From NCBI GenBank assembly GCA_017539635.1, contig JAFYCQ010000123.1, positions 1 to 10,810 on the forward strand: DNA of 10,810 nt, given 5' to 3'. Below are positions 1 through 10,810 of this stretch, piece after piece (position 1 is the first letter of the stretch; every line of letters begins with the position of its first letter). The translations under genes and the position numbers were made by a program. A model generated the notes under the pieces. It had not been told where the DNA came from, did not search any database, and saw only the letters and a program-made list of their open reading frames with translations. The stretch is from Oscillospiraceae bacterium. Lineage in GTDB: Bacteria > Bacillota > Clostridia > Oscillospirales > Oscillospiraceae.

Positions 1-410
1 GGCTCTCCGCCGGAGAGCTGAATGAGAGGGCGGCCGTGCGACAAAATTATGTCAACTGCACCTTTGAGTTCGTCAAGGGAGGGCTCCGGCCCCTTTTTTG
101 GGGCAAAGCAGAAGGCGCAGTTCAAATCGCAGCGGGGCGTGACCTCCAGAAGCACGCAGCACGTGCCCTGGGTGTGGCTGCCGCAGCGGCGGCAGTCGGG
201 GCACTTTTCGCCCTCGCCCTCTTTGAGAGGCGCCGCGTTTTCCCGCCAGTCTGCAAAGTCCGAAAGCCCCCGCCAGACGAGGGTTTTGAAATAACCGTGC
301 AAACGGCAGGTCTTTTCCATATATACGGCTCCGTTTTCCTCTGCCAGATGCGCCGCGATCGGCGCAAGGCAAACAGGGCAGACGGAGCGGGTTTTTCTTA
401 TTACAGTCAT
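1..410 (-). CDS. trsS: Radical SAM protein, TrsS-like (N-terminal part; 3' end outside window)
   Basis: The frame is open from the ATG at 408-410 to the left edge, about 136 codons. It carries the radical SAM cluster motif CX3CX2C as CDLNCAFC (C94, C98, C101), which binds the [4Fe-4S] cluster that cleaves S-adenosylmethionine, and LSGGE at 132-136, the usual second SAM-binding motif. Ahead of it lie further cysteines: CPVC (11-14), C35 in a CRLHGYF stretch, C70, C73, C76, and C84-C85. This Cys-rich leader followed by EVTPRCDLNC is typical of the COG1964-like group to which I recall TrsS belonging; some members are selenoproteins. No in-frame UGA appears in the visible part. The start codon overlaps the stop of the ligase gene by 4 bases (ATGA), so translation is probably coupled. 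The substrate is unknown. The radical SAM assignment is firm; the subfamily name rests on leader and neighbourhood from memory. Confidence 0.87.
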   Translation of the reverse strand, partial: MTVIRKTRSVCPVCLAPIAAHLAEENGAVYMEKTCRLHGYFKTLVWRGLSDFADWRENAAPLKEGEGEKCPDCRRCGSHTQGTCCVLLEVTPRCDLNCAFCFAPKKGPEPSLDELKGAVDIILSHGRPLIQLSGGE

Positions 411-1438
411 GGTCTTATCTCCGGGCGCCGGAATTTTTTCGGATCGGGGCGGCTCTCCACTCTCGCAAGTCTCCGGAGTATGCTGCCGCAGGGGCAGCTT
501 TGGGTTATGAGCCGGCATAGATCCCCGGTGCGGTAGCGGATAAAGGGCATGGCCCTTTTTCTCAGGGTGGTCACCACTATCTCCCCCGTCTCACCGGGAG
601 GGACGGGCAGGCCGCTTTCCGGTTCGACGATCTCATAATACAGATCCGATTCCCAGATATGGCAGGTGGGCGTCACGGTGCAGCCCACGCACCCGGCGTA
701 AGCCGTCTCCGTCATGCTGTAATGCTCGAAAACGGGACAGCCCAATGCCGCCCTGATTTCTTCAACGCACTTGTCCGTCACACAGGAGGCAGCCAAAAGC
801 ACGCCTTTCATTCTGCCGGAGAGCCGGTGTGACAGGCTTTCATCCGTCAGATAACGGGCAAAGCCGGAAACAGCCTCCGGCGGCCCGGCCAGGAAATCGA
901 AATTTCCCTCAATTATCGTATCCAGCATTTCCCCGTATCTTTCCGGCGCGGGAAAGCCGAAAACCTGAGACTTGACGCCGATGCGCAAAGGAGCCCTTGT
1001 CAAAAGCTCATTGAGGCAGTCGGGGCTTCTGCCGGGGAAGAGTATCAGCACCTTTTGGCCCGCTGTTACAAACTCCGCCATGCCGTGGGAAAAATACTCC
1101 TCGGTCAGCCTGAGCTCTTCCTCGGAAAAATATATGCGCTTGGGAGTTCCCGTGGTGCCGCTGGTGAAGAGCGTCACTACCCGGTGAATGTCCCGGGCCG
1201 GGACGCAGAGCATATCATGCCCCCGGGCCGCAACTTCCCCCGGCGTCGTAAAGGGCAGAGCGGAAAAACTCTCAAAGGAGTCGAAAGCGGCTCCTTTGAG
1301 CCTTTCGCCGTAAAACCGGCTGTTGTTGACGGCGTAATCAACTGCGTCCTTTAACAGAGACAGCCGTTTATCGTCCAGCTCCGCCCGGGTGAGTATCCGG
1401 GCGGAGCCGAGACGGCGGGAAACGTACCCGTCAAGCAT
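407..1438 (-). CDS. AMP-forming CoA ligase-like protein (DVU_1553-type, short)
   Basis: A 343-residue member of the acyl-adenylate-forming superfamily, closest in pattern to phenylacetate-CoA ligases. Visible motifs are the ATP-binding loop TSGTTGTPK (92-100), HYSMTE (239-244), and RYRTGD (301-306), whose Asp normally contacts the ribose. A CPCG motif (315-318) resembles the Cys-rich turn seen in PaaK-like proteins. Phenylacetate-CoA ligases run to about 430 residues; this one stops soon after RYRTGD, so the mobile C-terminal domain used in the thioester step is largely absent. It may therefore only adenylate a carboxylate, or hand it to a partner; that is inference. Its start overlaps the methyltransferase gene by 8 bases and its stop overlaps the radical SAM start by 4, placing it firmly in the operon. 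The substrate cannot be read from the sequence. Confidence 0.9.
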   Translation of the reverse strand: MLDGYVSRRLGSARILTRAELDDKRLSLLKDAVDYAVNNSRFYGERLKGAAFDSFESFSALPFTTPGEVAARGHDMLCVPARDIHRVVTLFTSGTTGTPKRIYFSEEELRLTEEYFSHGMAEFVTAGQKVLILFPGRSPDCLNELLTRAPLRIGVKSQVFGFPAPERYGEMLDTIIEGNFDFLAGPPEAVSGFARYLTDESLSHRLSGRMKGVLLAASCVTDKCVEEIRAALGCPVFEHYSMTETAYAGCVGCTVTPTCHIWESDLYYEIVEPESGLPVPPGETGEIVVTTLRKRAMPFIRYRTGDLCRLITQSCPCGSILRRLARVESRPDPKKFRRPEIRP

Positions 1439-2156
1439 CTTTTTGCTTCTTTCTGGCTATGAGCAGGAAGTAGCCGGCGTCCTTTCTCTTGCACAGAGCC
1501 TCGTTCCAGCAGCCTTCGGCCTCGTACCATTTCTCCAGAGAGCCGTAGTCCATTACGGCCTGGGCTGCATAAGTCTCCAGCTCCTTGGTGTGATCCTCCG
1601 TGACCTCCACCTTGAGCTCCAGCTCCTCTAACAGATCGACCAGGCTGGGCAGCACCACGGCCCCGTCCTGGCAGTAGGGGGAGGGGATCTCTATCTTTCT
1701 GCCGCACTCGGAGTGGAGCCTGGGCCTGTGGAAAAGAGCCATGGCCTCGTCGTACTGCTTTCTCCAGCGCTCCAGGTCCGGCTCCCGGCAATACACGTCG
1801 GAAATTATCAGCGCTCCGCCGGGCTTCAATACGCAGTACGCCTCGTGTATGGCCTCCTCCTGGTTTTCAAAAACCGAGAAGGAGCACTCCATAAGCACGT
1901 TGTCAAATTCATAGACGTCAAATTCCAGCATGGCGGCGTCCATGTTGAGGGCGTTTACGCCCTTTTCCTTGGCCGCTTTCACCATGTCGTCGTCTATGTC
2001 GATGGCCGTGACCACCTGGCCGTATTTGTCCCGGAGCATTTTGGCGACGGTGCCGTCGCCGCAGCCTGCGTCCAGTATAGTCCCTCCCGGCTTAACTCCG
2101 GCAAGCTCTATGGCGTGTTCCGTAAGCTCGGTGCCGCCGGGTCTTTTTATGCTCAT
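1431..2156 (-). CDS. Class I SAM-dependent methyltransferase (DVU_1556-type)
   Basis: A 241-residue Rossmann-fold methyltransferase. Motif I is ILDAGCGDG (27-35), the SAM-binding glycine loop. The acidic strand-2 end is AIDIDDDM (51-58), the motif IV region is FDNVLMECSFSVF (84-96), and KPGGALIISD (111-120) is the post-motif strand. The C-terminal half is rich in charged residues and holds Cys123, Cys146 and Cys158, which may shape the acceptor site. It is preceded by a GAGGTG ribosome binding site eight or so bases before ATG and lies 14 bases after the C-GCAxxG-C-C gene. I recall this family as regularly found beside the TrsS-type radical SAM protein. The methyl acceptor is unknown: a small molecule activated by the ligase, a cofactor or a protein are all possible. 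The enzyme class is clear, the specific role is not. Confidence 0.92.
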   Translation of the reverse strand: MSIKRPGGTELTEHAIELAGVKPGGTILDAGCGDGTVAKMLRDKYGQVVTAIDIDDDMVKAAKEKGVNALNMDAAMLEFDVYEFDNVLMECSFSVFENQEEAIHEAYCVLKPGGALIISDVYCREPDLERWRKQYDEAMALFHRPRLHSECGRKIEIPSPYCQDGAVVLPSLVDLLEELELKVEVTEDHTKELETYAAQAVMDYGSLEKWYEAEGCWNEALCKRKDAGYFLLIARKKQKDA

Positions 2157-2170
2157 GTCGGCACCTCGGT

Positions 2171-2548
2171 TTACATAATTTCTTTAACTATCTCGATCGC
2201 TCCGGCTACGTAGCCGGGGCAGACCTTCATCATCGTGCCGTTTGCCTTGGCCTCAGTCAAAGGCTGTTTGCCCAAAAGCTCGTGGCAGACGCAGGTGCCG
2301 AATTTTTCTGTAAATTTAGCCTCAAATTCAAGAGCCTTTTCCTTTTCCGCACCCAGCATGCCGCAGGCCATGAGGCCGCCGGTCACGGCGCCGCAGGTCT
2401 GGGCCATCATCATGCCGCCGCCGAAGAGGCAGCCGAAGCGGTCGGTCTCCTCAACGTCGTAGCCGCCCTCGTCGGCGAAGGCGCCTAAAACACACTGGGC
2501 GCAGTTGCGTCCGGACATAAACTCTTTAAGTACTTCGGTTTCGTTCAT
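2171..2548 (-). CDS. C-GCAxxG-C-C family redox/metal protein (DVU_1555-type)
   Basis: A 125-residue protein of the C_GCAxxG_C_C family. Cysteines occur in the family pattern: NCAQC (C16, C19), C40 before a GGG run, TCGAVTGG (51-58; C52), C62, TCVC (85-88; C86, C88) and C110. These conserved Cys residues, with glycine-rich segments between, suggest metal or Fe-S binding or thiol redox chemistry; the family has no settled biochemical role. There is no signal peptide or membrane segment, so it is cytoplasmic. A GGAG sequence lies about 11 bases before the ATG. It is separated from the upstream small redox gene by 82 bases, the only sizeable gap in the accessory block, and in that gap I see no clear promoter or terminator. 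Its constant company with the molybdoenzyme genes suggests electron transfer or maturation, which is inference. Confidence 0.9.
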   Translation of the reverse strand: MNETEVLKEFMSGRNCAQCVLGAFADEGGYDVEETDRFGCLFGGGMMMAQTCGAVTGGLMACGMLGAEKEKALEFEAKFTEKFGTCVCHELLGKQPLTEAKANGTMMKVCPGYVAGAIEIVKEIM

Positions 2549-2630
2549 TTCATCTTTTCTCCAATCCGCCGCCGTATGACCGTTTTTCCTTCCCCGGCGG
2601 CAGGGGGAGGGGGTCGTTATAAGAAAAGGA

Positions 2631-2819
2631 TTATTTGTCCTCCAGAAGCGTTTCCACCTCGTGCATTTTCCCGCTGACTATATCCGGCGGGATGTAGGGC
2701 TGGCCGCAGACAGGGCAGCAGGGGAAGTCGTTGGTGAGGCTGTGGCCGAGATAATTGAGGTTTATGGTCTTGGGCACAAGCTCAGCATTGCACTTGCCGC
2801 AGATAAGCTTTTCACTCAT
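2631..2819 (-). CDS. Small zinc-ribbon/rubredoxin-like protein (DVU_1557-type)
   Basis: A 62-residue protein with two metal-binding knuckles: CGKC (C7, C10) and CCPVCG (C34, C35, C38). Four of these five Cys would suit a rubredoxin-like iron site or a structural zinc ribbon. The rest is hydrophilic, with a short acidic C-terminal tail and no signal peptide. The ATG overlaps the stop of the large flavin/Fe-S gene by 4 bases (ATGA), so the two are very likely translationally coupled and may work together. I recall the family being annotated as a DVU_1557-type redox protein, which would fit a one-electron carrier between the flavin protein and the molybdoenzyme. The sequence does not distinguish an iron site from a zinc site. 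Confidence 0.88.
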   Translation of the reverse strand: MSEKLICGKCNAELVPKTINLNYLGHSLTNDFPCCPVCGQPYIPPDIVSGKMHEVETLLEDK

Positions 2820-5002
2820 CGTCCGTCACCCTCTCCCTCCAGCACCATGCGGTGGCAGTAGGCGTTGTGGATCATAAAGGCGTCGCCCTCTTCGCTCCAC
2901 TCCGCCCAGTAGGTCATTTTGCTGATTTTAATGTGGCCGATCTTCGTGCCTCTCTCCGTCAGCAGGTAGTTTTTCGTCTCATTGCAGCTTTTTATCACGT
3001 CGGAGATGTCATGGTCCCCGATGAGGTCAAGCTCCATTTTGTTCCTTAGTTCATCTGGTATTATAAGCTTCAATTCATCCATCGGGATTTCCTCTCCTGA
3101 ATAAAAAGCCTTGACTTCCACGCGGTTTCGGCGCCTCTGTCCCAGGCTCGGGGGAGAAGTCTCCCGTTTTCTGCCGGTGAGCACCTCGATTATATGCCGG
3201 CAGTCCTTGCCCTTGCCGGAGAGCACATCCCGGCAGTTGGCGCAGTAGGTGACGTAGGGCAGGGGATCGGAATCGGCCCTCTTTTGCGCCATGGTGTCGA
3301 AAAGCTCCCGGTTTCCGGGGTAGATGTGACCGCCGTAGCCGCAGCAGCGGTTTCTCTCCAGAGGGTCAGAAATTTCATTTGCCGTAATGCCCCGGGAGCG
3401 TATGAGCGCCTTGACGCTTTCCTGCATTTCTCCGTCCTTCCTGCTGGAGCAGGGGTGGAATACTGCGACGGTCTCGCCGGAGCTCTCCGCCGGGGCGCAG
3501 CCCTCCGCCAGAAGCTCGTAAAGTGAAGTTGCGGGAATGTCCGGCAGATACTCTATGAACGTCCGTTTGCAGGTGGGGCAGGCGGTGACTATGACGGGTT
3601 TTCCGCAGTCCTCCCAGACGCCCTTCAGTTTTTCCAGATGGGACTTAAACCCCTCGGCGTCTCCCGCCCAGCGGGCCGGAATGCCGCAGCAGTTCAGCAT
3701 TATGCCGCTGCCGGGCTTAATGCCGCATAAAAGGTCATAGGCGTCCTTGACAAGCTCCGGGTCGGAGGCCCCCAGCTGACAGCCGGGGAAGAACAGATAC
3801 CCGTTTTCCGGCTTTTTGAGGTACGCCGCCTTTTCGGAGAGGGAGAACTCAAAATCCCGCAGCCAAATATCGTGATAGACCTTCGGCAGACTCCCGTCGT
3901 CGAACATGAGGGCCCGGGAGGTCATGAGCATATAATTCATGTCTATGCTCTCCGGGCAGAAATCCCGGCACAGACCGCAGTCGTTGCAGGAATTTATGAG
4001 CCTGGTGGCCCTTCGCGGCATGAAGCAGTCCACGGGATTGAGGGTCACCCGGACGTCGCTCTCGGCTTTCGCCGGCATGGTCTTGTAATGCTGTAGAAGG
4101 TCGCAGCGGTCGTAACAGGCGCGGCAGTCGCACAGGCGGCAGCGCCTGGCCTCCTCCTGAGCCTGCTCCTTCGTTAAAGGTTCAGATTTCTCGGTTTTTT
4201 CTGCGCTTATGGGCTTGAGCCCGGAGGACAAAGTCACTTCCTCCCCGGCGCCTATTTTCAGATAGGCGTCTATGGCCGTAGCGGCGGCCTTGCCGCTCTC
4301 CACGGCTTTCGGAAGGGACGTGCCGGTGATTTCTCCGGCGGCAAAGACTTTTTCCGGCAATGCTTTGCCTTCAAAGCCCAAGGCGTCGGAGCCGGCCCCG
4401 GTGGCAATGGCCACGGCGGAAAAGCTCTCCAGCTCATTAAGGCTTTTTATCTTCCTGCCGGTGCTTATCGTCAGGCTTTCCGACTCGATGACGGACATTA
4501 TCTCCGGCAGGTAATCCTCCTGTGGGAGAAGCTCCCGGAGCCTGCCGCCGATGTCGTTTTCCGCCTCGAAAAGCTCCACGGAGTAGCCTAAAGTCGTAAG
4601 GACGTAAGCGCAGGTGAGGCCCCCGAGGCCTCCCCCCACAACGGCGATACGCTCTTCTTTAGGCGGGACGTTATAGCGTGGCGGCGAGCTTTTGGAACCG
4701 GCGAAGACCGCCTGCTCCAGAGTCGGGAGGTTTACGGGGGCGCCGGAAAGCTCGGCTGTGCACCCCTTGAGGCAGGGGGCCCCGCAAATAGCGCACATGA
4801 CTTTGGGAAAGGTGAGCTGCTCAGATAACGCGCCGTAAGCGCCCCGGATACTGCCTCTTTGCAGCTTGCGGATAAAGGCCCTCACATCCAGACCGTAGGG
4901 GCATTCCCGGGAGCACCGGGGAGCCTGGCCGTTTCGGCAGGGGGCCGTGAGATTCAGCTCCGTCGCAAAGGCTCGCGCCCTGGACGGCTTGACTGTTTTC
5001 AT
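2816..5002 (-). CDS. FAD/Fe-S oxidoreductase with two CCG (HdrB/GlpC-like) modules
   Basis: A 728-residue multidomain redox protein, of the family I recall as pyridine nucleotide-disulfide oxidoreductase/dicluster-binding protein. Residues 20-100 are a GltD-like N-terminal Fe-S domain (C22, C30, C34; C70, C73, C77, C81). Residues 119-128 (IAVVGGGLGG) open an FAD Rossmann fold, with FEAE at 145-148, AIATGA at 198-203 and FAAGE at 220-224. A Cys-rich knot follows (C288, C291, C293, C296, C300), then a [4Fe-4S] ferredoxin motif (C339, C342, C345, C349-P). Two CCG-type domains come next: FPGC and CCG (405-440) with CPTC (475-478), then HPC (516-518), CCGYGG (553-558) and YCANC (586-590), like HdrB, GlpC or LutA. 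A tail of about 100 residues (625-728) has no function I recognise. ATG is preceded by GGAGG six bases upstream. The stretch between 203 and 219 is too short for an NAD(P) domain. Likely role: electron transfer to or from the molybdoenzyme. Confidence 0.92.
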   Translation of the reverse strand: MKTVKPSRARAFATELNLTAPCRNGQAPRCSRECPYGLDVRAFIRKLQRGSIRGAYGALSEQLTFPKVMCAICGAPCLKGCTAELSGAPVNLPTLEQAVFAGSKSSPPRYNVPPKEERIAVVGGGLGGLTCAYVLTTLGYSVELFEAENDIGGRLRELLPQEDYLPEIMSVIESESLTISTGRKIKSLNELESFSAVAIATGAGSDALGFEGKALPEKVFAAGEITGTSLPKAVESGKAAATAIDAYLKIGAGEEVTLSSGLKPISAEKTEKSEPLTKEQAQEEARRCRLCDCRACYDRCDLLQHYKTMPAKAESDVRVTLNPVDCFMPRRATRLINSCNDCGLCRDFCPESIDMNYMLMTSRALMFDDGSLPKVYHDIWLRDFEFSLSEKAAYLKKPENGYLFFPGCQLGASDPELVKDAYDLLCGIKPGSGIMLNCCGIPARWAGDAEGFKSHLEKLKGVWEDCGKPVIVTACPTCKRTFIEYLPDIPATSLYELLAEGCAPAESSGETVAVFHPCSSRKDGEMQESVKALIRSRGITANEISDPLERNRCCGYGGHIYPGNRELFDTMAQKRADSDPLPYVTYCANCRDVLSGKGKDCRHIIEVLTGRKRETSPPSLGQRRRNRVEVKAFYSGEEIPMDELKLIIPDELRNKMELDLIGDHDISDVIKSCNETKNYLLTERGTKIGHIKISKMTYWAEWSEEGDAFMIHNAYCHRMVLEGEGDGR

Positions 5003-5018
5003 AAGGTTCCTCCATAGG

Positions 5019-5070
5019 AAAAAAACGCGGGGACGGGCCGGACTGATTTTCCAGTTCAGCCCATCCCCGC
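5019..5070 (-). terminator. Intrinsic terminator after the aldehyde oxidoreductase gene
   Basis: Read on the minus strand, GCGGGGA (5064-5070) pairs with TCCCCGC (5027-5033), one G-T wobble follows, GGGC pairs with GCCC (59-62 with 35-38 of the 5000s), and an inner ACTG/CAGT stem closes the loop. The helix is followed by a run of seven T at 5019-5025. On the plus strand there is no U-tract, so it works leftward only. It lies 44 bases past the oxidoreductase stop codon and just before the ribosome binding site of the flavin/Fe-S gene. It should end many transcripts after the enzyme gene and lower expression of the six accessory genes. Confidence 0.88.
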
Positions 5071-5087
5071 AAAATCAGCTCATTTTG
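5043..5087 (-). promoter_or_regulatory. Possible antiterminator and competing hairpin upstream of the terminator
   Basis: On the minus strand CTGATTTT (5071-5078) is an exact 8-base complement of AAAATCAG (5043-5050), which sits in the terminator loop. Forming that helix encloses the 5' arm of the terminator and breaks its inner stem. A third element, CAAAAT (5082-5087) with ATTTTG (5070-5075), would occupy part of the antiterminator arm. This resembles the layout of an attenuator, but the stems are AT-rich and short and could be chance. No ligand-binding fold or leader peptide was recognised here. Confidence 0.3.
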
Positions 5088-5113
5088 AGATGGCTAAAAG
5101 AACAGTGTCTCGC

Positions 5114-7972
5114 TTAGAGAGCAAGTCCGCCGCCGGCGGTGTTGGAGACGGGATTTTCGATAGCGTCCTCGATGATTCCGAACATATCCGGGCCGAGGTA
5201 GTACTTCTTGTTCTCCAGGGGCTTTCCGGCCTTTATGGCGTCGAGAGCGGCCTTGACCTTGGCGGGCTTTGCCGGCAGGTCGAAGATGCGGACGCCGCAG
5301 GCGTTGTAAATGGAGTTTATAATGGCCATGTGGCCTGCGCTCTGAAAGCCCTCGCAGCAGCCGACGGAGCCGAAGGGAGCCGGGTTCTTTCTCGGGCCTT
5401 CAAGGTTGACGAGCTCGATGTTGTCGGTGACGTCGTCGGCGTAGCGGAAGCCGCACTGGGTGATCTGGGCGTGCTTGGCGTCGTCGATGTACTCCTCGGA
5501 AAGGGCGAAGCCCAGGGAGTGGACGAGAGAGCCGTAGCCCTGGCCCTCAACAGCCTGCACGGAGCCGACCTTGCCGATGTCGTAGAACATGATGTAGCGC
5601 AGCACGTTGGTTACGCCGGTCTCGGTGTCAACCTCGGACAGAGCCATGAAGTTGCAGTAGTTGTACTGGGAGGTGGGGTCGCCGGCGCCGGTGTTGGGAT
5701 CCAGCTCCTCGCAAATGGCGGCGGTGTCGTGGACGCCCACGTACTTGGTGGGGATGCCCTCCTTCACCATCTCGTCATAGGTGCGGAAGGTGCCGTCGGG
5801 CTTCTTCATGGCGGCAATGAGCTTGTTTGCGCCGTCGATTATGGCGCTGCCGGCCATGTAGTGAGAGCGGTTGGCGCCGGCAGCTCCGGTAAGAGGAGCC
5901 TGGGCGGTGTCACCCTGGACGAGGCGGATCTTCTCTACGGGCACGCCGAGAGCCTTGACAGCCTCATGAGTGAGAACGAGGGAGCCGACATCGGAGCCCT
6001 GGCCCTGGTCTTCCCAGGTGTTGTAGCAGGTAACGCCGCCGTCGGGATCCAGGCCTATGGCCACCTCGGAGTGGTCGGCGCCGCCGGTGACGTTGTAGCC
6101 GCCGATGGCGATGCCCACGCCGTACTTCTTGTTGGGGATGTTCTCGGCGTTCTTCTTCTCAGCCTCGGCCTTCATCTCGTCGTAGTAGGGACGCATGGCG
6201 TCCATCATGCGCTTGAAGGGGTACTCGTGATAGGGCACGGAGTTGAGGTTCAGGTCGCCCTCCTTGACAAGGTTCCTGTAACGGAACTCGAAGGGGTCGA
6301 TCCCGGCCTTCGCGGCCAGCATATCCATCATGGCCTCGGACATGGTGTAGGACTGGGCGTTGCCGTAGGAGCGGTAGGGGGTGCCGTAGGTCTGGTTGGA
6401 GTAGCCGAGACGCACGAGGGCCCGGACGTTGGGCACGTTGTAGCCGAAGTAGGGGAAGCGCTGAGCCTTGGAGCCCAGCATGTCCGCCATTTCGCTGTAA
6501 GCGCCGTGGTCGAATACGAAGTCGTACTCGGCGGCGGTGAGCTTGCCGTCCTTGTCGCAGCCCAGGCGGGCGTTGGAGTAGTGGGCGCAGCGCTTGCCGA
6601 CGAAGGCGTTATGCTGCGCATAGGTGAGAGTCATGCTTACGGGTCTGCCCAGAGCCATGGCGGCGGCGCCGGCGATGCAGGCGGATCTCTGGGTCATGGA
6701 GGAGCCGAAGGAAGCGCCCGTCGGGTTTTCGATCATTCTCAGCTTGTCAGCCGGAATGCCGATGGTGGGCGGCACGACTCCCAGGAAGACGTCCAGAGCA
6801 AGGGTCTTGCAGTGGATGGTGAGAACGCCCTCGTCGTCCATGTAAGCCTGGACAACGTCGGGCTCTATAATGAGGTGGGGCTGGCTGGTGGAATAGAAGC
6901 TGCCCTCAACCACGTATTCGGACTCGTCCAGAACGTCTCTGGTGTCCTCGCCCTTGACAAGGGGCAGACGGAGATATTCGTTGGGGGAGCCCTCGTGAAT
7001 TTCGATAGCGCCGGGGGCGATAGACTCAAGATAGGTCATGTAGGCGGGCAGCTCTTCGATCTGCACCTTGACCTTCTTGGCGGCCTCACGGGCCAGCTCC
7101 TGGCTCTCGGCGGCAACAACGGCCACCACGTCGCCGTAACGATAGACCTTATCGTCGTTTATGACCTTGTGGTCAAAGCCGTCTATCTTGGAGCGGGGGT
7201 GAGGTACGGGCATCATAATGGTGTTGGTGCCCTTGACATCCTTGGCGGTGAGAACCTTGATGACGCCGGGCATGGCCTCGGCCTCACTTGCGTCGATGCT
7301 GATGATCTTGCCGTGGTGTACGCCGGGCATGACAGGGGCGAGATAAGCGGTGTTGCGGGGCATCTTGAGGGCGATATCGTCGCCGAAATCGCAGGTGCCG
7401 GTGGCCTTTGCCAGAGCCGCGGGACGGGGAATGGCGGTGCCGTAGATCGTTCCGTCAGCCGGTACGTGATAGGTTATGTCGTCAATGGTGGCCTCGCCGC
7501 GAAGGACCTTGGCGGCGGCCATGACGCAGTCGATGATCGGCTTCCAGCCGGTGCAGCGGCAGGCGTTCTTGTTGACGGTGAACCAGTGGCGAACCTCTTC
7601 TCTGGTGGGGTTGGGGTTCTCCTGCAGAAGGGCGTAGGTGGAGACTATGAAGCCCGGAGTGCAGAAGCCGCACTGAATGCCGCCGAAGGTGACGAAGGCC
7701 TGCTGAATGGGGTGGGGATTGGTCGGGGTGCCTATACCCTCGACCGTGAGTACCGTGCTGTACTCCTCGATGGATTTCATCTTCTTGATGCAGGCCCGGA
7801 CCAGCTTGCCGTTGAGAATGACGGAGCAGGCGCCGCAGACGCCGACGCCGCAGCCGATCTTGGTACCTGTGAGACCCATCTGCCGAAGTACTTTTGCAAG
7901 GGAGTCGTCCGGGTCGCAGACGAAAGCCTTGTTGGCTCCGTTAATGTTGAGCCATCTTTTTTCCAATGCCAT
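5114..7972 (-). CDS. Molybdopterin-dependent aldehyde oxidoreductase (Mop-type)
   Basis: A 952-residue member of the xanthine oxidase family in the single-chain layout of Desulfovibrio gigas Mop: two [2Fe-2S] domains then the molybdopterin domains, with no FAD domain. The plant-type ferredoxin cluster is C41, C46, C49, C61 and the second cluster C101, C104, C138, C140, each one residue beyond the positions I recall for Mop. GASFG (419-423) and TPYRSYG (531-537) match the Phe421 and Arg533 regions of Mop, and EDQGQG (654-659) is a molybdopterin contact segment. The catalytic Glu is probably E874, but in GCCE rather than GVGE. It catalyses hydroxylation of an aldehyde or similar carbonyl; the true substrate is unknown. 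It is cytoplasmic, being without a signal peptide. The start is fixed by AGGAGG ten bases upstream. It exceeds the roughly 907 residues of Mop by some 45. As first gene of the cluster and followed by a terminator, it is probably the most expressed product. Confidence 0.95.
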   Translation of the reverse strand: MALEKRWLNINGANKAFVCDPDDSLAKVLRQMGLTGTKIGCGVGVCGACSVILNGKLVRACIKKMKSIEEYSTVLTVEGIGTPTNPHPIQQAFVTFGGIQCGFCTPGFIVSTYALLQENPNPTREEVRHWFTVNKNACRCTGWKPIIDCVMAAAKVLRGEATIDDITYHVPADGTIYGTAIPRPAALAKATGTCDFGDDIALKMPRNTAYLAPVMPGVHHGKIISIDASEAEAMPGVIKVLTAKDVKGTNTIMMPVPHPRSKIDGFDHKVINDDKVYRYGDVVAVVAAESQELAREAAKKVKVQIEELPAYMTYLESIAPGAIEIHEGSPNEYLRLPLVKGEDTRDVLDESEYVVEGSFYSTSQPHLIIEPDVVQAYMDDEGVLTIHCKTLALDVFLGVVPPTIGIPADKLRMIENPTGASFGSSMTQRSACIAGAAAMALGRPVSMTLTYAQHNAFVGKRCAHYSNARLGCDKDGKLTAAEYDFVFDHGAYSEMADMLGSKAQRFPYFGYNVPNVRALVRLGYSNQTYGTPYRSYGNAQSYTMSEAMMDMLAAKAGIDPFEFRYRNLVKEGDLNLNSVPYHEYPFKRMMDAMRPYYDEMKAEAEKKNAENIPNKKYGVGIAIGGYNVTGGADHSEVAIGLDPDGGVTCYNTWEDQGQGSDVGSLVLTHEAVKALGVPVEKIRLVQGDTAQAPLTGAAGANRSHYMAGSAIIDGANKLIAAMKKPDGTFRTYDEMVKEGIPTKYVGVHDTAAICEELDPNTGAGDPTSQYNYCNFMALSEVDTETGVTNVLRYIMFYDIGKVGSVQAVEGQGYGSLVHSLGFALSEEYIDDAKHAQITQCGFRYADDVTDNIELVNLEGPRKNPAPFGSVGCCEGFQSAGHMAIINSIYNACGVRIFDLPAKPAKVKAALDAIKAGKPLENKKYYLGPDMFGIIEDAIENPVSNTAGGGLAL

Positions 7973-7982
7973 GATTAAGTTT

Positions 7983-7988
7983 CCTCCT
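7983..7988 (-). promoter_or_regulatory. Ribosome binding site of the aldehyde oxidoreductase gene
   Basis: On the minus strand a full AGGAGG lies ten bases before the ATG at 7970-7972. It settles the start of the enzyme gene and predicts strong translation. Confidence 0.9.
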
Positions 7989-8022
7989 CTTATGTTTCTT
8001 TAGCCTTACCTCTTTCTTAATG

Positions 8023-8081
8023 ATACGCGGGCTTGTATGAAAGACATTGTGCACAAAACCGCGTATGACATACCACTGTCA
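8023..8081. promoter_or_regulatory. Cluster of inverted repeats, candidate operator region
   Basis: Several short perfect inverted repeats overlap within 59 bases. ATACGCGG (8023-8030) mirrors CCGCGTAT (8059-8066). TTGTGCACAA (8047-8056) is a ten-base palindrome between those arms. GTATGACATAC (8063-8073) is a palindrome around a central A. TGACA (8066-8070) mirrors TGTCA (8077-8081). They lie 50-110 bases before the aldehyde oxidoreductase start, where a regulator would act. The regulator is not identified, and no single repeat matches a consensus I can name with confidence. Confidence 0.45.
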
Positions 8082-8193
8082 CTTTATCGAAAAGAACGGG
8101 AAATGTATTGTATTTATTGGTAATGCGTCCGGCACTTTTTTTGAAAAAAACTTAAAAAATATACTTTCCGGTGGTGCAAAGCGGGCGAAAACA

Positions 8194-8202
8194 TGGTATG
8201 AT
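8194..8202 (+). promoter_or_regulatory. Extended -10 promoter element of the surface-protein gene
   Basis: TGGTATGAT fits the extended -10 form TGnTATAAT with one mismatch. The place where a -35 would sit (about 8174-8179, GTGCAA) is a poor match, which is tolerated in extended -10 promoters. Transcription would begin near 8209, giving a leader of about 75 bases. A 12-base palindrome, TAATTATAATTA (8212-8223), lies just past the likely start and could be a repressor site. Confidence 0.5.
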
Positions 8203-8270
8203 ATAGTCAACTAATTATAATTATGCACAGTTTACTGAACATAGCCGCGTTTCGCGTTATTTTTTGCTCA

Positions 8271-8276
8271 AGGAGG
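8271..8276 (+). promoter_or_regulatory. Ribosome binding site of the surface-protein gene
   Basis: AGGAGG lies eight bases before the ATG at 8285-8287. It supports this start, which is also followed at once by a good signal peptide. Confidence 0.9.
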
Positions 8277-8284
8277 CCGTTATT

Positions 8285-10810
8285 ATGAAGACGAAAAAGG
8301 TGCTCAGCTTATTGCTGGCTGTTTTGATGTGCGTTTCCCTCCTGCCCGTAACGGCGGGGGCGGCAGTCATCGCCTCCGGCACCTGGGGCGATTGCCCGTG
8401 GGAACTGGACGACCAGGGTGTTCTCACCGTCCATCCGGGCGACGCCGACGATGCTTCCTCAGCGCCCTGGAAAAACAGGGATGACGTAAAATCCGTCGTC
8501 ATCCGGGAGGAAGACGGGAAAAAGACAGCCGCGTCGTCAAGTTGCGATAGTCTTTTCGGCGGATGCGGGAATATAACATCTATCGACCTTTCTGGGCTTG
8601 ACACCTCGGGCGTGACGGGTATGGTGGAGATGTTCTATAACTGCTCGTCCCTCGCCTCCCTGAACGTTTCGGGATGGAAAACTTCGAGCGTGACGGATAT
8701 GAAGGCGATGTTCTATGGCTGCTCGTCCCTCACCTCCCTCGACGTTTCAAAGTGGGACACCTCGGGCGTGACGAGCATGTACGACTTGTTCCGCGACTGC
8801 TCTTCCCTCACCGTCCTCGACGTTTCGGGCTGGGACACCTCGAGTGTGACGGATATGGCGGAGATGTTCTTTGACTGCTCGTCCCTCACCTCCCTCGACA
8901 TGTCCGGCTGGGATTTCTCAAATATTGAAGACGGCGGGACGAGCGTCATTTTCTATCAATGCGAAAACCTTTCCGAGTTGACCCTGCCCTCCGATTACAA
9001 GATAACCGCGGCGTCGTCGTCCAAGGAGAGGGGAGGGGCGTGCATATCGCACCTTAATGAGGACGGAAAAACCGTAACCCTGACGGCCTTTCCCATAGGA
9101 AACAACGTTTTCAAAGGATGGCAGGAGGGCGAAAGCATCGTCTCCACGGCTGACCCCTATGAGTTCACGGCCACGGAAAACCGCACCCTCACCGCCGTTT
9201 TTGGAGAAAAGACCGCCACCCCCGGCACCGGCACGGGGAACACCGCCGACCTCGTCCTGGACTTCGGAGGGTACTACACGGCTGCCCCGGGAGACTCGGT
9301 AAATATCACCGTCAAACTCGCAGAGGGTGACGTCCCGGTCGCGGGTATGGACGTTTTCTACCAGATAGACAGCCCGCTCAAAATAGCCGACTTCGGCTAC
9401 ACCGCAGCGGCGTACGATAATGCTGTAGTAAACAAAAACGTAAATGATCTTGAATGTAATTTCTCCGTCGCAAACGACGGCGATCCCGTTAAAGTCAGTG
9501 TCGGCAAGTCGGTGTTCAGCCTCACAGTGTACATTCCAGAAAATTGCCCTAACGGCGATTACACGGTGACCTTCAAATCGATTAAAGTGTTCAAACAAGA
9601 AGACTCCGGTGACACATGGTCTGTCGCCGTAATACCCGCGACCATAAAGGTGGAAAAACCCGCCGTCCCCAACCCCGATACCGCCTACTGGGGCGACGCC
9701 AACTGCGACGGCCAGGTGGATATGGCGGACGCGGTGCTCATAAAGCAGTCTCTGGCAAACCCGAACAGGTACGGCTTGGGCGGGACCGAACCCGAACCCG
9801 GCCACCTGACGGAGGAGGGCAAACTGCGCGCAGACGTCGATAATTCCACCAAAGGTTTAACCTCGGATGACGCCGTGAAGATCCAGGAATTTCTTTTGGG
9901 CAAAATAGATAGTTTGACCCCTGTCGGCGCAGGTGCTGCTCTGCCGGACTATAAGGAGCCGCCCCGTCTCTCCGGGGGCAACAACGTTACGGAAAACGCC
10001 GACGTGGCCTTTTCCTTCATGGACGACAAGGGCCAAAACAATGTAATGGCCAAGCCGGGAAAAGAGATAAAGGTCTGCGTAATAATCGACGCCGGGGATA
10101 ATAATATCTCGGCCATTGACGCGCAGTTCAAGACGCAGGGGCTTGCGATCGATGAATTTGATAATAATTCAGAGGCGTGCGGAGATGCTAAATTGGCGAA
10201 AAACGAAAAAGGACTTCGGGCAAACTTCACGAGCACCGGGAGGAACGACGGCGAACCCGTGAAGGTCAGTAACGGCAAGGATGCTTTTACCTTCTATATC
10301 ACCCTTCCCACAGACGCCAAAGACGTCATTTACACCGTGGGCTTTGCCGAATACTTACGGGTTTATAAAGGCAACACGAAGGACCTCTATTCCACCTCCT
10401 TCACGCCTCTGACCATAACGGTGGGAAATCCCGCCGTCACCCTCCCCGGCACAGGCAAGGAGGGCGACCCCTATCAGATCAGCACCGCCGCGCAGCTGGG
10501 TAAGTTCCGGGATATAGTGAACGGGGCTAACGGCGAAACGCAGAACAGCGAAGCCTGCGCAGAGCTTAAAGCGAATATCGACTTAGGCGGCCTGGACGCG
10601 GAGGGCAACCTTGTGGAGGCCAATAAGTGGACGCCCATAGGCCCGGATTACAACACCTATTACACCGGCACCTTCAACGGGGCGGGGTATGAGATCTCCG
10701 GCCTGAAGGTCTCGGGAGAACTGGAATATGCCGGTCTGTTCGGCTATATTGGCAATAAGGGCGTGGTGGAAAACCTGTCCGTCTCCGGCAAGGTAGAGGC
10801 AGAAGCTACC
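8285..10810 (+). CDS. BspA-like secreted surface protein with cohesin-like, dockerin-like and GLUG regions (3' end outside window)
   Basis: The frame is open for 842 codons to the right edge, so the protein is longer than seen. Residues 1-26 are a signal peptide (basic MKTKK start, hydrophobic core, cleavage near AGA/A). Residues 95-226 are five BspA/DUF285 leucine-rich units of about 26 residues each, with the core LDVSGWDTSSVTDM. Residues 239-306 resemble an InlB B-repeat (NVFKGWQEGE, then NRTLTAVF). Residues 322-456 and 570-715 are two related cohesin-like beta domains. Between them, 468-541 resembles a type I dockerin with a full first calcium loop (D471, N473, D475, D479, D482) and a degenerate second one. 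From about 718 a GTGKEGDPYQIS segment opens a GLUG-type region, with TGTFNGAGYEISGL at 794-807. Expected location is the cell surface or matrix; an anchor would lie past the window. Function is probably adhesion, inferred from the modules. Domain calls are by eye. Confidence 0.88.
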   Translation, partial: MKTKKVLSLLLAVLMCVSLLPVTAGAAVIASGTWGDCPWELDDQGVLTVHPGDADDASSAPWKNRDDVKSVVIREEDGKKTAASSSCDSLFGGCGNITSIDLSGLDTSGVTGMVEMFYNCSSLASLNVSGWKTSSVTDMKAMFYGCSSLTSLDVSKWDTSGVTSMYDLFRDCSSLTVLDVSGWDTSSVTDMAEMFFDCSSLTSLDMSGWDFSNIEDGGTSVIFYQCENLSELTLPSDYKITAASSSKERGGACISHLNEDGKTVTLTAFPIGNNVFKGWQEGESIVSTADPYEFTATENRTLTAVFGEKTATPGTGTGNTADLVLDFGGYYTAAPGDSVNITVKLAEGDVPVAGMDVFYQIDSPLKIADFGYTAAAYDNAVVNKNVNDLECNFSVANDGDPVKVSVGKSVFSLTVYIPENCPNGDYTVTFKSIKVFKQEDSGDTWSVAVIPATIKVEKPAVPNPDTAYWGDANCDGQVDMADAVLIKQSLANPNRYGLGGTEPEPGHLTEEGKLRADVDNSTKGLTSDDAVKIQEFLLGKIDSLTPVGAGAALPDYKEPPRLSGGNNVTENADVAFSFMDDKGQNNVMAKPGKEIKVCVIIDAGDNNISAIDAQFKTQGLAIDEFDNNSEACGDAKLAKNEKGLRANFTSTGRNDGEPVKVSNGKDAFTFYITLPTDAKDVIYTVGFAEYLRVYKGNTKDLYSTSFTPLTITVGNPAVTLPGTGKEGDPYQISTAAQLGKFRDIVNGANGETQNSEACAELKANIDLGGLDAEGNLVEANKWTPIGPDYNTYYTGTFNGAGYEISGLKVSGELEYAGLFGYIGNKGVVENLSVSGKVEAEAT
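8567..8962 (+). repeat. Five tandem 78-base units encoding BspA/DUF285 repeats
   Basis: Units cover residues 95-120, 121-146, 147-172, 173-198 and 199-226 of the surface protein; the last is two residues longer. Each ends in a Cys (120, 146, 172, 198, 226) and starts with SSL in four of the five. At DNA level the middle units share long stretches such as TGCTCGTCCCTC and GACACCTCG, so they could misalign and change copy number. Confidence 0.88.

Follow-up and report, generated by a model that had tools for sequence, protein, structure and literature searches.

A stretch of 10,810 nucleotides from an Oscillospiraceae bacterium (positions 1 to 10,810 of contig JAFYCQ010000123.1, assembly GCA_017539635.1; hereafter the window) carries seven genes that join a Mop-type aldehyde oxidoreductase (Mop) to a flavin/Fe-S/CCG protein (the flavin protein), a small two-knuckle protein (ZN), a C-GCAxxG-C-C protein (CGC), an S-adenosylmethionine (SAM)-dependent methyltransferase, an adenylate-forming ligase and the radical SAM protein TrsS. 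Comparison with its relatives points, tentatively, to a pathway in which Mop transfers electrons to a dedicated flavoprotein, and a separable module containing TrsS, the methyltransferase and the ligase would make a diffusible cofactor or carrier, and not a group fixed to Mop. The locus belongs to an already catalogued neighbourhood, and as far as the literature searched shows, what is new is the separability of the module, the argument drawn from the Desulfovibrio gigas enzyme, the set of metal sites that TrsS shares with tetraether lipid synthase (Tes), and the candidate electron partner of Mop. In that literature, searched largely outside subscription papers, TrsS appears as a table entry with no function given, and the available passages of the D. 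gigas genome paper and of a classification of tungsten oxidoreductases do not mention the module.

Co-occurrence of Mop and TrsS

Few Mop genomes lack TrsS, and the converse, TrsS without Mop, is seen more often. Three samples of genomes were compared: 247 genomes from the family of a Halodesulfovibrio genome, which we take to be Desulfovibrionaceae (sample 1; Mop at E <= 1e-200, TrsS at E <= 1e-60), 228 genomes from the phylum of Geobacter argillaceus (sample 2; curated cut-offs for both proteins), and 200 genomes from the window's own family (sample 3; Mop at E <= 1e-200, TrsS at E <= 1e-50, with 40 of the 49 Mop and 35 of the 45 TrsS genomes over the curated cut-off). Samples 1 and 2 overlap, as six of the 16 Mop genomes of sample 2 are also in sample 1; completeness figures apply to sample 3 only, and Fisher tests on the co-occurrence ignore the relatedness of the genomes. 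Sample 1 holds 163 genomes with both proteins, six with Mop only, six with TrsS only and 72 with neither. In sample 2 TrsS exceeds its cut-off in 24 genomes, eight of which lack Mop over the cut-off, including one (G370) with a Mop fragment at a contig end. The corresponding figures for sample 3 are 42 with both, seven with Mop only, three with TrsS only and 148 with neither, and one of the Mop-only genomes is that of the window, whose TrsS is truncated. The initial annotation had expected the set to be conserved together and its own proposal to fail if the oxidoreductase were often found without its partners; this was examined, and the outcome does not refute the proposal. TrsS accompanies Mop in 163 of 169 Mop genomes of sample 1, in 16 of 16 of sample 2 and in 42 of 49 of sample 3, and is missing from 6, 0 and 7 of them, respectively.

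Several of the exceptions are explained by contig ends. In the three Mop-only genomes of sample 1 that were fetched (L166-L168) a contig ends inside the operon; the Mop-only genomes G074, G202 and G210 lie outside this inspection of loci. Among the six TrsS-only genomes of sample 1, two have a Mop fragment at a contig end and three have a contig that begins with, or close to, the flavin gene, or measures just 4.4 kb, leaving G023 (locus L131) as a real case of TrsS without Mop. The two genes lie on one contig in 23 of the 42 double-positive genomes of sample 3, and on separate contigs in 19; in four fetched cases (L169, L171-L173) the TrsS locus is internal to its contig and no Mop is near. 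A single TrsS match was found in 22 of the 24 genomes with several Mop matches.

Gene neighbourhoods and the separable module

Relatives of the locus were collected by scanning genome contigs with an alignment of the ligase, a single-sequence query having found none, and only the best 80 of 547 loci were taken, so rare contexts are under-sampled. Their titles name Desulfobacterota, Firmicutes, Chloroflexi, Acidobacteria, Actinomycetes, Spirochaetes, Synergistaceae, one Sulfurospirillum and two Alphaproteobacteria, some of these ranks being presumed from genus names. With thresholds of our own setting, and many loci cut by contig ends, these 80 loci show TrsS in 63, the methyltransferase in 61, ZN in 59, CGC in 64, the flavin protein in 63, Mop in 52, a MocA-like nucleoside triphosphate (NTP) transferase in 44 and XdhC in 36. 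The initial annotation had expected genes of these last two kinds just beyond the left edge of the window, which is a contig end and so hides them from view. Mop, the flavin protein, ZN, the methyltransferase, TrsS and the ligase occur together in 25 of the 38 loci of at least 20 kb. The usual order in relatives is MoeA-like protein, Mop, flavin protein, ZN, methyltransferase, CGC, TrsS, ligase, XdhC, NTP transferase and a protein of the alpha-ribazole-phosphatase type.

Judged by gene content, TrsS, the methyltransferase, the ligase, ZN and the C-terminal domain of the flavin protein (FADct) form a separable module. Mop exceeds its cut-off in 17 of the 22 genomes behind the loci, the five others being those of L003, L016, L022, L035 and L065. 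The G. argillaceus locus (L016) has a tungsten-type aldehyde oxidoreductase (AFOR), a ferredoxin-like protein and MoeA, then an FADct-ZN fusion, the methyltransferase, TrsS and the ligase. Such FADct-ZN fusions, in which the remainder of the flavin protein may be present or absent, were found in L016, L002, L003, L039 and L133, and fusions of the methyltransferase to the ligase in L046, L062, L066 and L076. The initial annotation had regarded the ligase, the methyltransferase and the radical SAM enzyme as a likely pathway, a suggestion that the present comparison supports.

Away from Mop, the module can stand apart or adjoin other redox enzymes, ATP-dependent reductases among them. HgdB-type proteins lie beside it on the same strand in L118, L120 and L131, together with an acyl-CoA dehydratase activase in L118 and L120. 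A RACo-type activator is found beside it in L122 and L123, a weak link given the opposite strand of the activator gene and the close relationship between these loci. In L163, L164 and L171, from genomes in which TrsS is distant from Mop or Mop was not detected, a CobW-type GTPase directly adjoins TrsS. MoaC, which marks the synthesis of the Mo cofactor, was found in 11 of the 14 genomes that have TrsS and no complete Mop found, and none was found in G023, which has no completeness figure, or in G554 and G614, which are 70% and 67% complete. Other candidates were discarded: matches to the double-cubane and AcsV models stay below their cut-offs, and a tungsten AFOR as general partner is at odds with the occurrence of a Geobacter-type AFOR in 61 of 228 genomes, only six of them with a TrsS match, which makes the AFOR link a local one. 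As a separate observation, positions 6138-10757 of L131 hold a tandem pair of TrsS-like genes along with those for a ligase, the HgdB-type protein and a DUF5714 protein, in the genome without a MoaC found.

Molybdenum/tungsten (Mo/W) riboswitches (RF01055) were detected in 10 of 44 sources, nine of them ahead of a Mop or AFOR operon, which ties these operons to the Mo/W cofactor; that of L035 precedes the gene after the ligase. Two lie in tandem ahead of the AFOR-MoeA-TrsS operon of G. argillaceus (L016, 2604-2724 and 2823-2942). No Mo/W riboswitch was found in one group of nine sources, seven of which show no linked Mop.

Mop and the D. gigas aldehyde oxidoreductase

The Mop of the window scores 1160.2 bits against NF045668 (cut-off 1100) and 824 bits against the D. 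gigas aldehyde oxidoreductase (PDB 1sij), to which it is homologous over its full length. Like the latter (PDB 1sij, 1vlb), it keeps the catalytic glutamate, presumably equivalent to Glu869 of D. gigas, and the operon partners. The motif around this residue is nevertheless altered (GCCEGFQS instead of the GVGELPLT type; class B), and this class B motif together with a non-aromatic residue at the position of D. gigas Phe425, to which we ascribe a role bearing on the substrate, was found in 9 of 70 aligned Mop open reading frames (ORFs), the window included, a set in which some genes are present twice and L021 looks unlike Mop. These two features distinguish the window's enzyme, which is 46-48% identical to the nearest enzymes of the D. 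gigas type, and class B Mops may act on a substrate other than that of the D. gigas enzyme. A molybdopterin cytosine dinucleotide (MCD) cofactor and aldehyde oxidation can be predicted for the window's Mop by homology.

When the 247 genomes of sample 1 were queried with the D. gigas Mop, one of them (G037) matched with 100% identity over 905 residues. Its locus (L116) holds a MoeA-like gene, Mop, the flavin protein, ZN, the methyltransferase, CGC, TrsS, the ligase, XdhC and the phosphatase-type gene. In the available passages of a review (PMC10223205), the D. gigas enzyme, the first crystal structure of the xanthine oxidase family, is described as purified from very large cultures, solved at 1.28 A and containing MCD, with an oxo group where other family members have sulfur at the molybdenum. 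If the operon added a permanent ligand or protein modification, a structure of this kind should reveal it, and on the review's description a stable modification of the molybdenum site is therefore unlikely. The initial annotation had proposed that the accessory genes build a ligand for this site or modify the oxidoreductase; neither a stable ligand nor a modified oxidoreductase is supported, as the D. gigas enzyme is encoded in the same operon and has MCD according to those passages, and the set also occurs without Mop, adjoining other redox enzymes.

The flavin protein as candidate electron partner

The flavin protein (NF045663, 629 bits; cut-off 530) combines an Nfn/HdrA-type Fe-S and flavin half, a dicluster domain, an HdrB-like double CCG region and FADct, a C-terminal domain of about 90 residues. 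Both five-cysteine CCG motifs are complete across 44 aligned sequences, and motifs and fold together place the protein among HdrB-like CCG proteins. In a structural search limited to chains ranked high by Foldseek, residues 21-292 of its AlphaFold model (pLDDT 88.9) match StnABC, Nfn and GltD-type proteins, and HdrB matches at 400-618. The Nfn chain 5jfc_L aligns 228 residues spread over chain positions 45-472, which suggests that a block the size of an NAD(P) domain is missing. Pfam likewise recognises one dinucleotide-binding region (about 104-193), unlike in the L065 protein, which matches the whole two-domain family (110-403). Thus, the protein shares the N-terminal half and the HdrB-type double CCG with the Nfn/Stn transhydrogenases and HdrABC, and it differs from them in apparently having no NAD(P)-binding domain, in being one fused chain and in its extra FADct domain. 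Weak RelE-like rows obtained in a fold search with FADct-ZN are not trusted.

The first recognised gene downstream of Mop encodes this flavoprotein in D. gigas and many relatives as well as in the window. On sequence and model it is the strongest candidate for the protein that accepts electrons from Mop; the earlier idea that the Fe-S proteins pass electrons is plausible for the flavin/Fe-S protein. The passages of the review available describe in-vitro work with flavodoxin, and a model of the flavin partner of the D. gigas enzyme in which docked flavodoxin takes the place of the 'missing' flavo-domain (PMC10223205).

TrsS, the ligase and the small proteins

The partial TrsS of the window matches NF045646 with 129 bits over positions 2-142 of 441 (the full-length cut-off is 490) and shows a rubredoxin-like motif, the N-terminal cluster motif and CX3CX2C, with a match to Tes (GDGT-MAS; PDB 7tol) at E 7e-18. 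The remainder was not found in the 60%-complete assembly, where the three other matches to the TrsS model reach at most 52 bits and none continues the truncated gene. TrsS relatives align with Tes over the whole length and keep the mappable ligand positions of its four metal sites: in 25 aligned sequences CxxC-x20-CxxH, C-C-C-H and CX3CX2C are invariant or nearly so, and three C-terminal cysteines, assigned as Tes ligands from the alignment, are kept along with the methionine that maps to the labile Met439 named in the available passages on Tes. The ligands of the N-terminal cluster are missing in the L035 and L062 relatives. TrsS differs from Tes in its bacterial operon context, in the replacement of Tyr459, which is fully conserved in archaeal Tes, and in a poorly matching stretch between the two aligned parts, so that a lipid substrate is not implied. 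Methylation of a pterin by TrsS was dropped as a candidate because MJ0619, once proposed to be a pterin methylase, is Tes; the available passages report that Lloyd et al. did not corroborate its pterin activity (PMC9433317). Selenocysteine is a trait of some TrsS members, and a selenoprotein role was also set aside: there is no in-frame TGA within 98 TrsS matches (136 loci and the window, whose copy is partial), and two flavin-family hits were taken as read-through into neighbouring sequence. A SECIS_4 match was recorded in L056 (16208-16245), about 5 kb past the ligase gene. L128 and L129 of the Geobacter phylum sample encode Tes-like proteins adjoining sigma-54 regulators, that of L128 scoring above the tetraether synthase cut-off.

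The ligase (NF045666, 351 bits; cut-off 300) ends 37 residues after the RYRTGD motif, as against at least 100 in long relatives, and thus lacks the C-terminal domain, which carries the usual catalytic lysine. This domain is missing in 19 of 96 ligase ORFs, present in 73 and intermediate in four, one gene being counted twice (L016 = L130). The methyltransferase matches NF045667 (175 bits against 155), and ZN both NF045645 (73 against 60) and PF24292 (81 against 27). CGC passes PF09719 (82 against 27), misses TIGR01909 by 0.1 bit and falls outside the DVU_1555 model (NF045669; 24.7 against 103).

Proposed mechanism and rival explanations

In the pathway that we tentatively favour, Mop would oxidise an aldehyde to the acid at an ordinary Mo-MCD site and hand the electrons, via its two [2Fe-2S] clusters, to the flavin protein. 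The latter, seemingly without an NAD(P) domain, would pass them through the dicluster to the HdrB-like CCG clusters, where a disulfide or comparable acceptor would be reduced, perhaps with bifurcation. The molybdenum cofactor would be matured by neighbours of known type in relatives (MoeA-like protein, MocA-like NTP transferase and XdhC). The module would work as a small biosynthetic pathway that combines activation of a carboxylate by the ligase, a methylation by the methyltransferase and, through chemistry of the Tes type, the formation by TrsS of a bond at an unactivated carbon. Its product, seemingly needed by Mop without being fixed to it, would most likely be a diffusible cofactor or carrier that serves the electron-transfer complex of Mop and other low-potential redox enzymes. 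A bolder version, which we consider doubtful, is that the three enzymes make a new small redox cofactor, similar in spirit to PQQ or mycofactocin and not derived from a peptide, that is built by the same Tes-type bond formation, that FADct and ZN handle and that Mop, tungsten aldehyde oxidoreductases and ATP-dependent reductases have in common. Several observations weigh against a diffusible product serving a flavin/CCG electron pathway. No substrate or product of the module was found in the literature, adenylation by the short ligases is only putative since they lack the catalytic-lysine domain, and the fold search with FADct-ZN returned nothing at E <= 0.001. One 97%-complete genome (G550) has two Mops and the ligase with no TrsS match. 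In L163 TrsS stands beside MoeA-like, MoaA, MoaB-type and XdhC genes, and in L165, L169 and L173 beside MocA-like or XdhC genes, away from Mop. Furthermore, no CCG, CGC or Hdr-like match lies beside the module of G. argillaceus, and the riboswitches ahead of Mop or AFOR operons in nine sources favour a role in cofactor maturation.

According to this maturation alternative, which we rate below the diffusible product and as rather unlikely, TrsS, the methyltransferase and the ligase would have a transient part in the synthesis, insertion or sulfuration of the Mo-MCD (or tungsten) cofactor of Mop and AFOR and would leave nothing behind in the mature enzyme. What keeps it in contention is that Mo-cofactor genes and Mo/W riboswitches, including the tandem pair before the Geobacter AFOR operon, often accompany the set: the module lies between Mop and XdhC or the NTP transferase in many relatives, TrsS stands beside Mo-cofactor genes where Mop lies elsewhere, and Mop rarely occurs without TrsS. 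To our knowledge, however, none of the three enzymes is required for the established steps by which MCD is formed and sulfurated. Moreover, the models used for XdhC, the NTP transferase and MoeA-type proteins match nothing in L118-L123, L125 or L131, the genome of L131 (G023, without a completeness figure) is the one noted above with no MoaC found, and the pterin-methylase annotation of the TrsS relative MJ0619 was not corroborated in the passages cited (PMC9433317). A catabolic pathway, in which the acid produced by Mop or AFOR would be turned by the ligase into a thioester or acyl-AMP for further processing by TrsS and the methyltransferase, with HgdB-type or other enzymes elsewhere, is less probable still. 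Many HgdB-type proteins act on CoA thioesters, and such proteins adjoin the module in three loci; sigma-54 regulators and iron alcohol dehydrogenases occur on some loci, and the available part of a D. vulgaris proteome table lists DVU_1559, the Mop of that species, under ethanol metabolism (PMC10920352). Nevertheless, genomes with several Mops mostly carry one TrsS match, the co-occurrence of the two persists across separate contigs, a fifth or so of the ligase ORFs (19 of 96) lack the C-terminal domain, and radical SAM and methylation steps would be costly for bulk catabolism. Finally, assembly or repair of metal clusters, with TrsS and its partners modifying CGC or the flavin/CCG protein at an Fe-S cluster or a cysteine, fits the frequency of these two proteins (63 and 64 of the best 80 loci) and seems very improbable, as the G. 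argillaceus locus shows no match to either CCG or CGC and the ligase and methyltransferase would have no obvious place in it.

Organisation of the window

The window is the whole of contig C80 in a 1.19 Mb draft genome rated 60% complete. Seven open genes, overlapping or closely spaced, lie on the minus strand between positions 3 and 7972 (Table 1), in the order Mop, flavin protein, ZN, CGC, methyltransferase, ligase, TrsS. The ZN gene overlaps that of the flavin protein by 4 bases and the ligase gene that of the methyltransferase by 8; the TrsS ORF opens at 518, and its likely start is an ATG at 410 that overlaps the ligase stop. Six of the seven genes pass NCBIfam or Pfam cut-offs, the seventh being TrsS, cut by the contig end. 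The seven-gene, same-strand set listed in the initial annotation is thus correct, and its recognition of a DVU_155x neighbourhood with a TrsS member is borne out by these matches. The window shares its families and most of its gene set with that NCBIfam neighbourhood (NF045663-NF045669, NF045645, NF045646), differing in gene order, in a CGC that scores below the DVU_1555 model and in its short-form ligase. NCBI has catalogued and named these families, and no function was found assigned to them. No Mo/W riboswitch was found in the window, even at E up to 1. A divergent gene (8264-10810, plus strand), which continues past the contig end, encodes a surface protein that combines a dockerin-like domain with PARCEL/BspA-type repeats; nothing suggests that it is part of the operon.

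Table 1. Features of the operon and its upstream region, in window coordinates.
Feature	Position	Strand	Basis
Mop-type aldehyde oxidoreductase, 952 aa; two [2Fe-2S] and Mo-cofactor domains; variant class B	5114..7972	-	NF045668, PDB 1sij, motif comparison
Flavin/dicluster/double-CCG protein, 728 aa	2816..5002	-	NF045663, alignment of 44, AlphaFold model, structural matches
ZN, small two-knuckle protein, DVU_1557 family, DUF7479, 62 aa	2631..2819	-	NF045645, PF24292
CGC, C-GCAxxG-C-C protein, 125 aa	2171..2548	-	PF09719
SAM-dependent methyltransferase, DVU_1556 family, 241 aa	1431..2156	-	NF045667
PaaK-like adenylate-forming ligase, DVU_1553 family, short form, 343 aa	407..1438	-	NF045666, alignment with long forms
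TrsS radical SAM protein, N-terminal part, cut by contig end	3..410	-	NF045646, PDB 7tol, sequence
Intergenic region, presumed operon promoter	7973..8263	.	Riboswitch searches

Significance

The presence of a dedicated flavoprotein gene downstream of Mop makes the question of Mop's partner directly testable. The same operon encodes a Tes-like radical SAM enzyme, spread from Desulfovibrio to Firmicutes, to which no product was found assigned, and if the TrsS module does make a cofactor, that cofactor would occur in many anaerobes.

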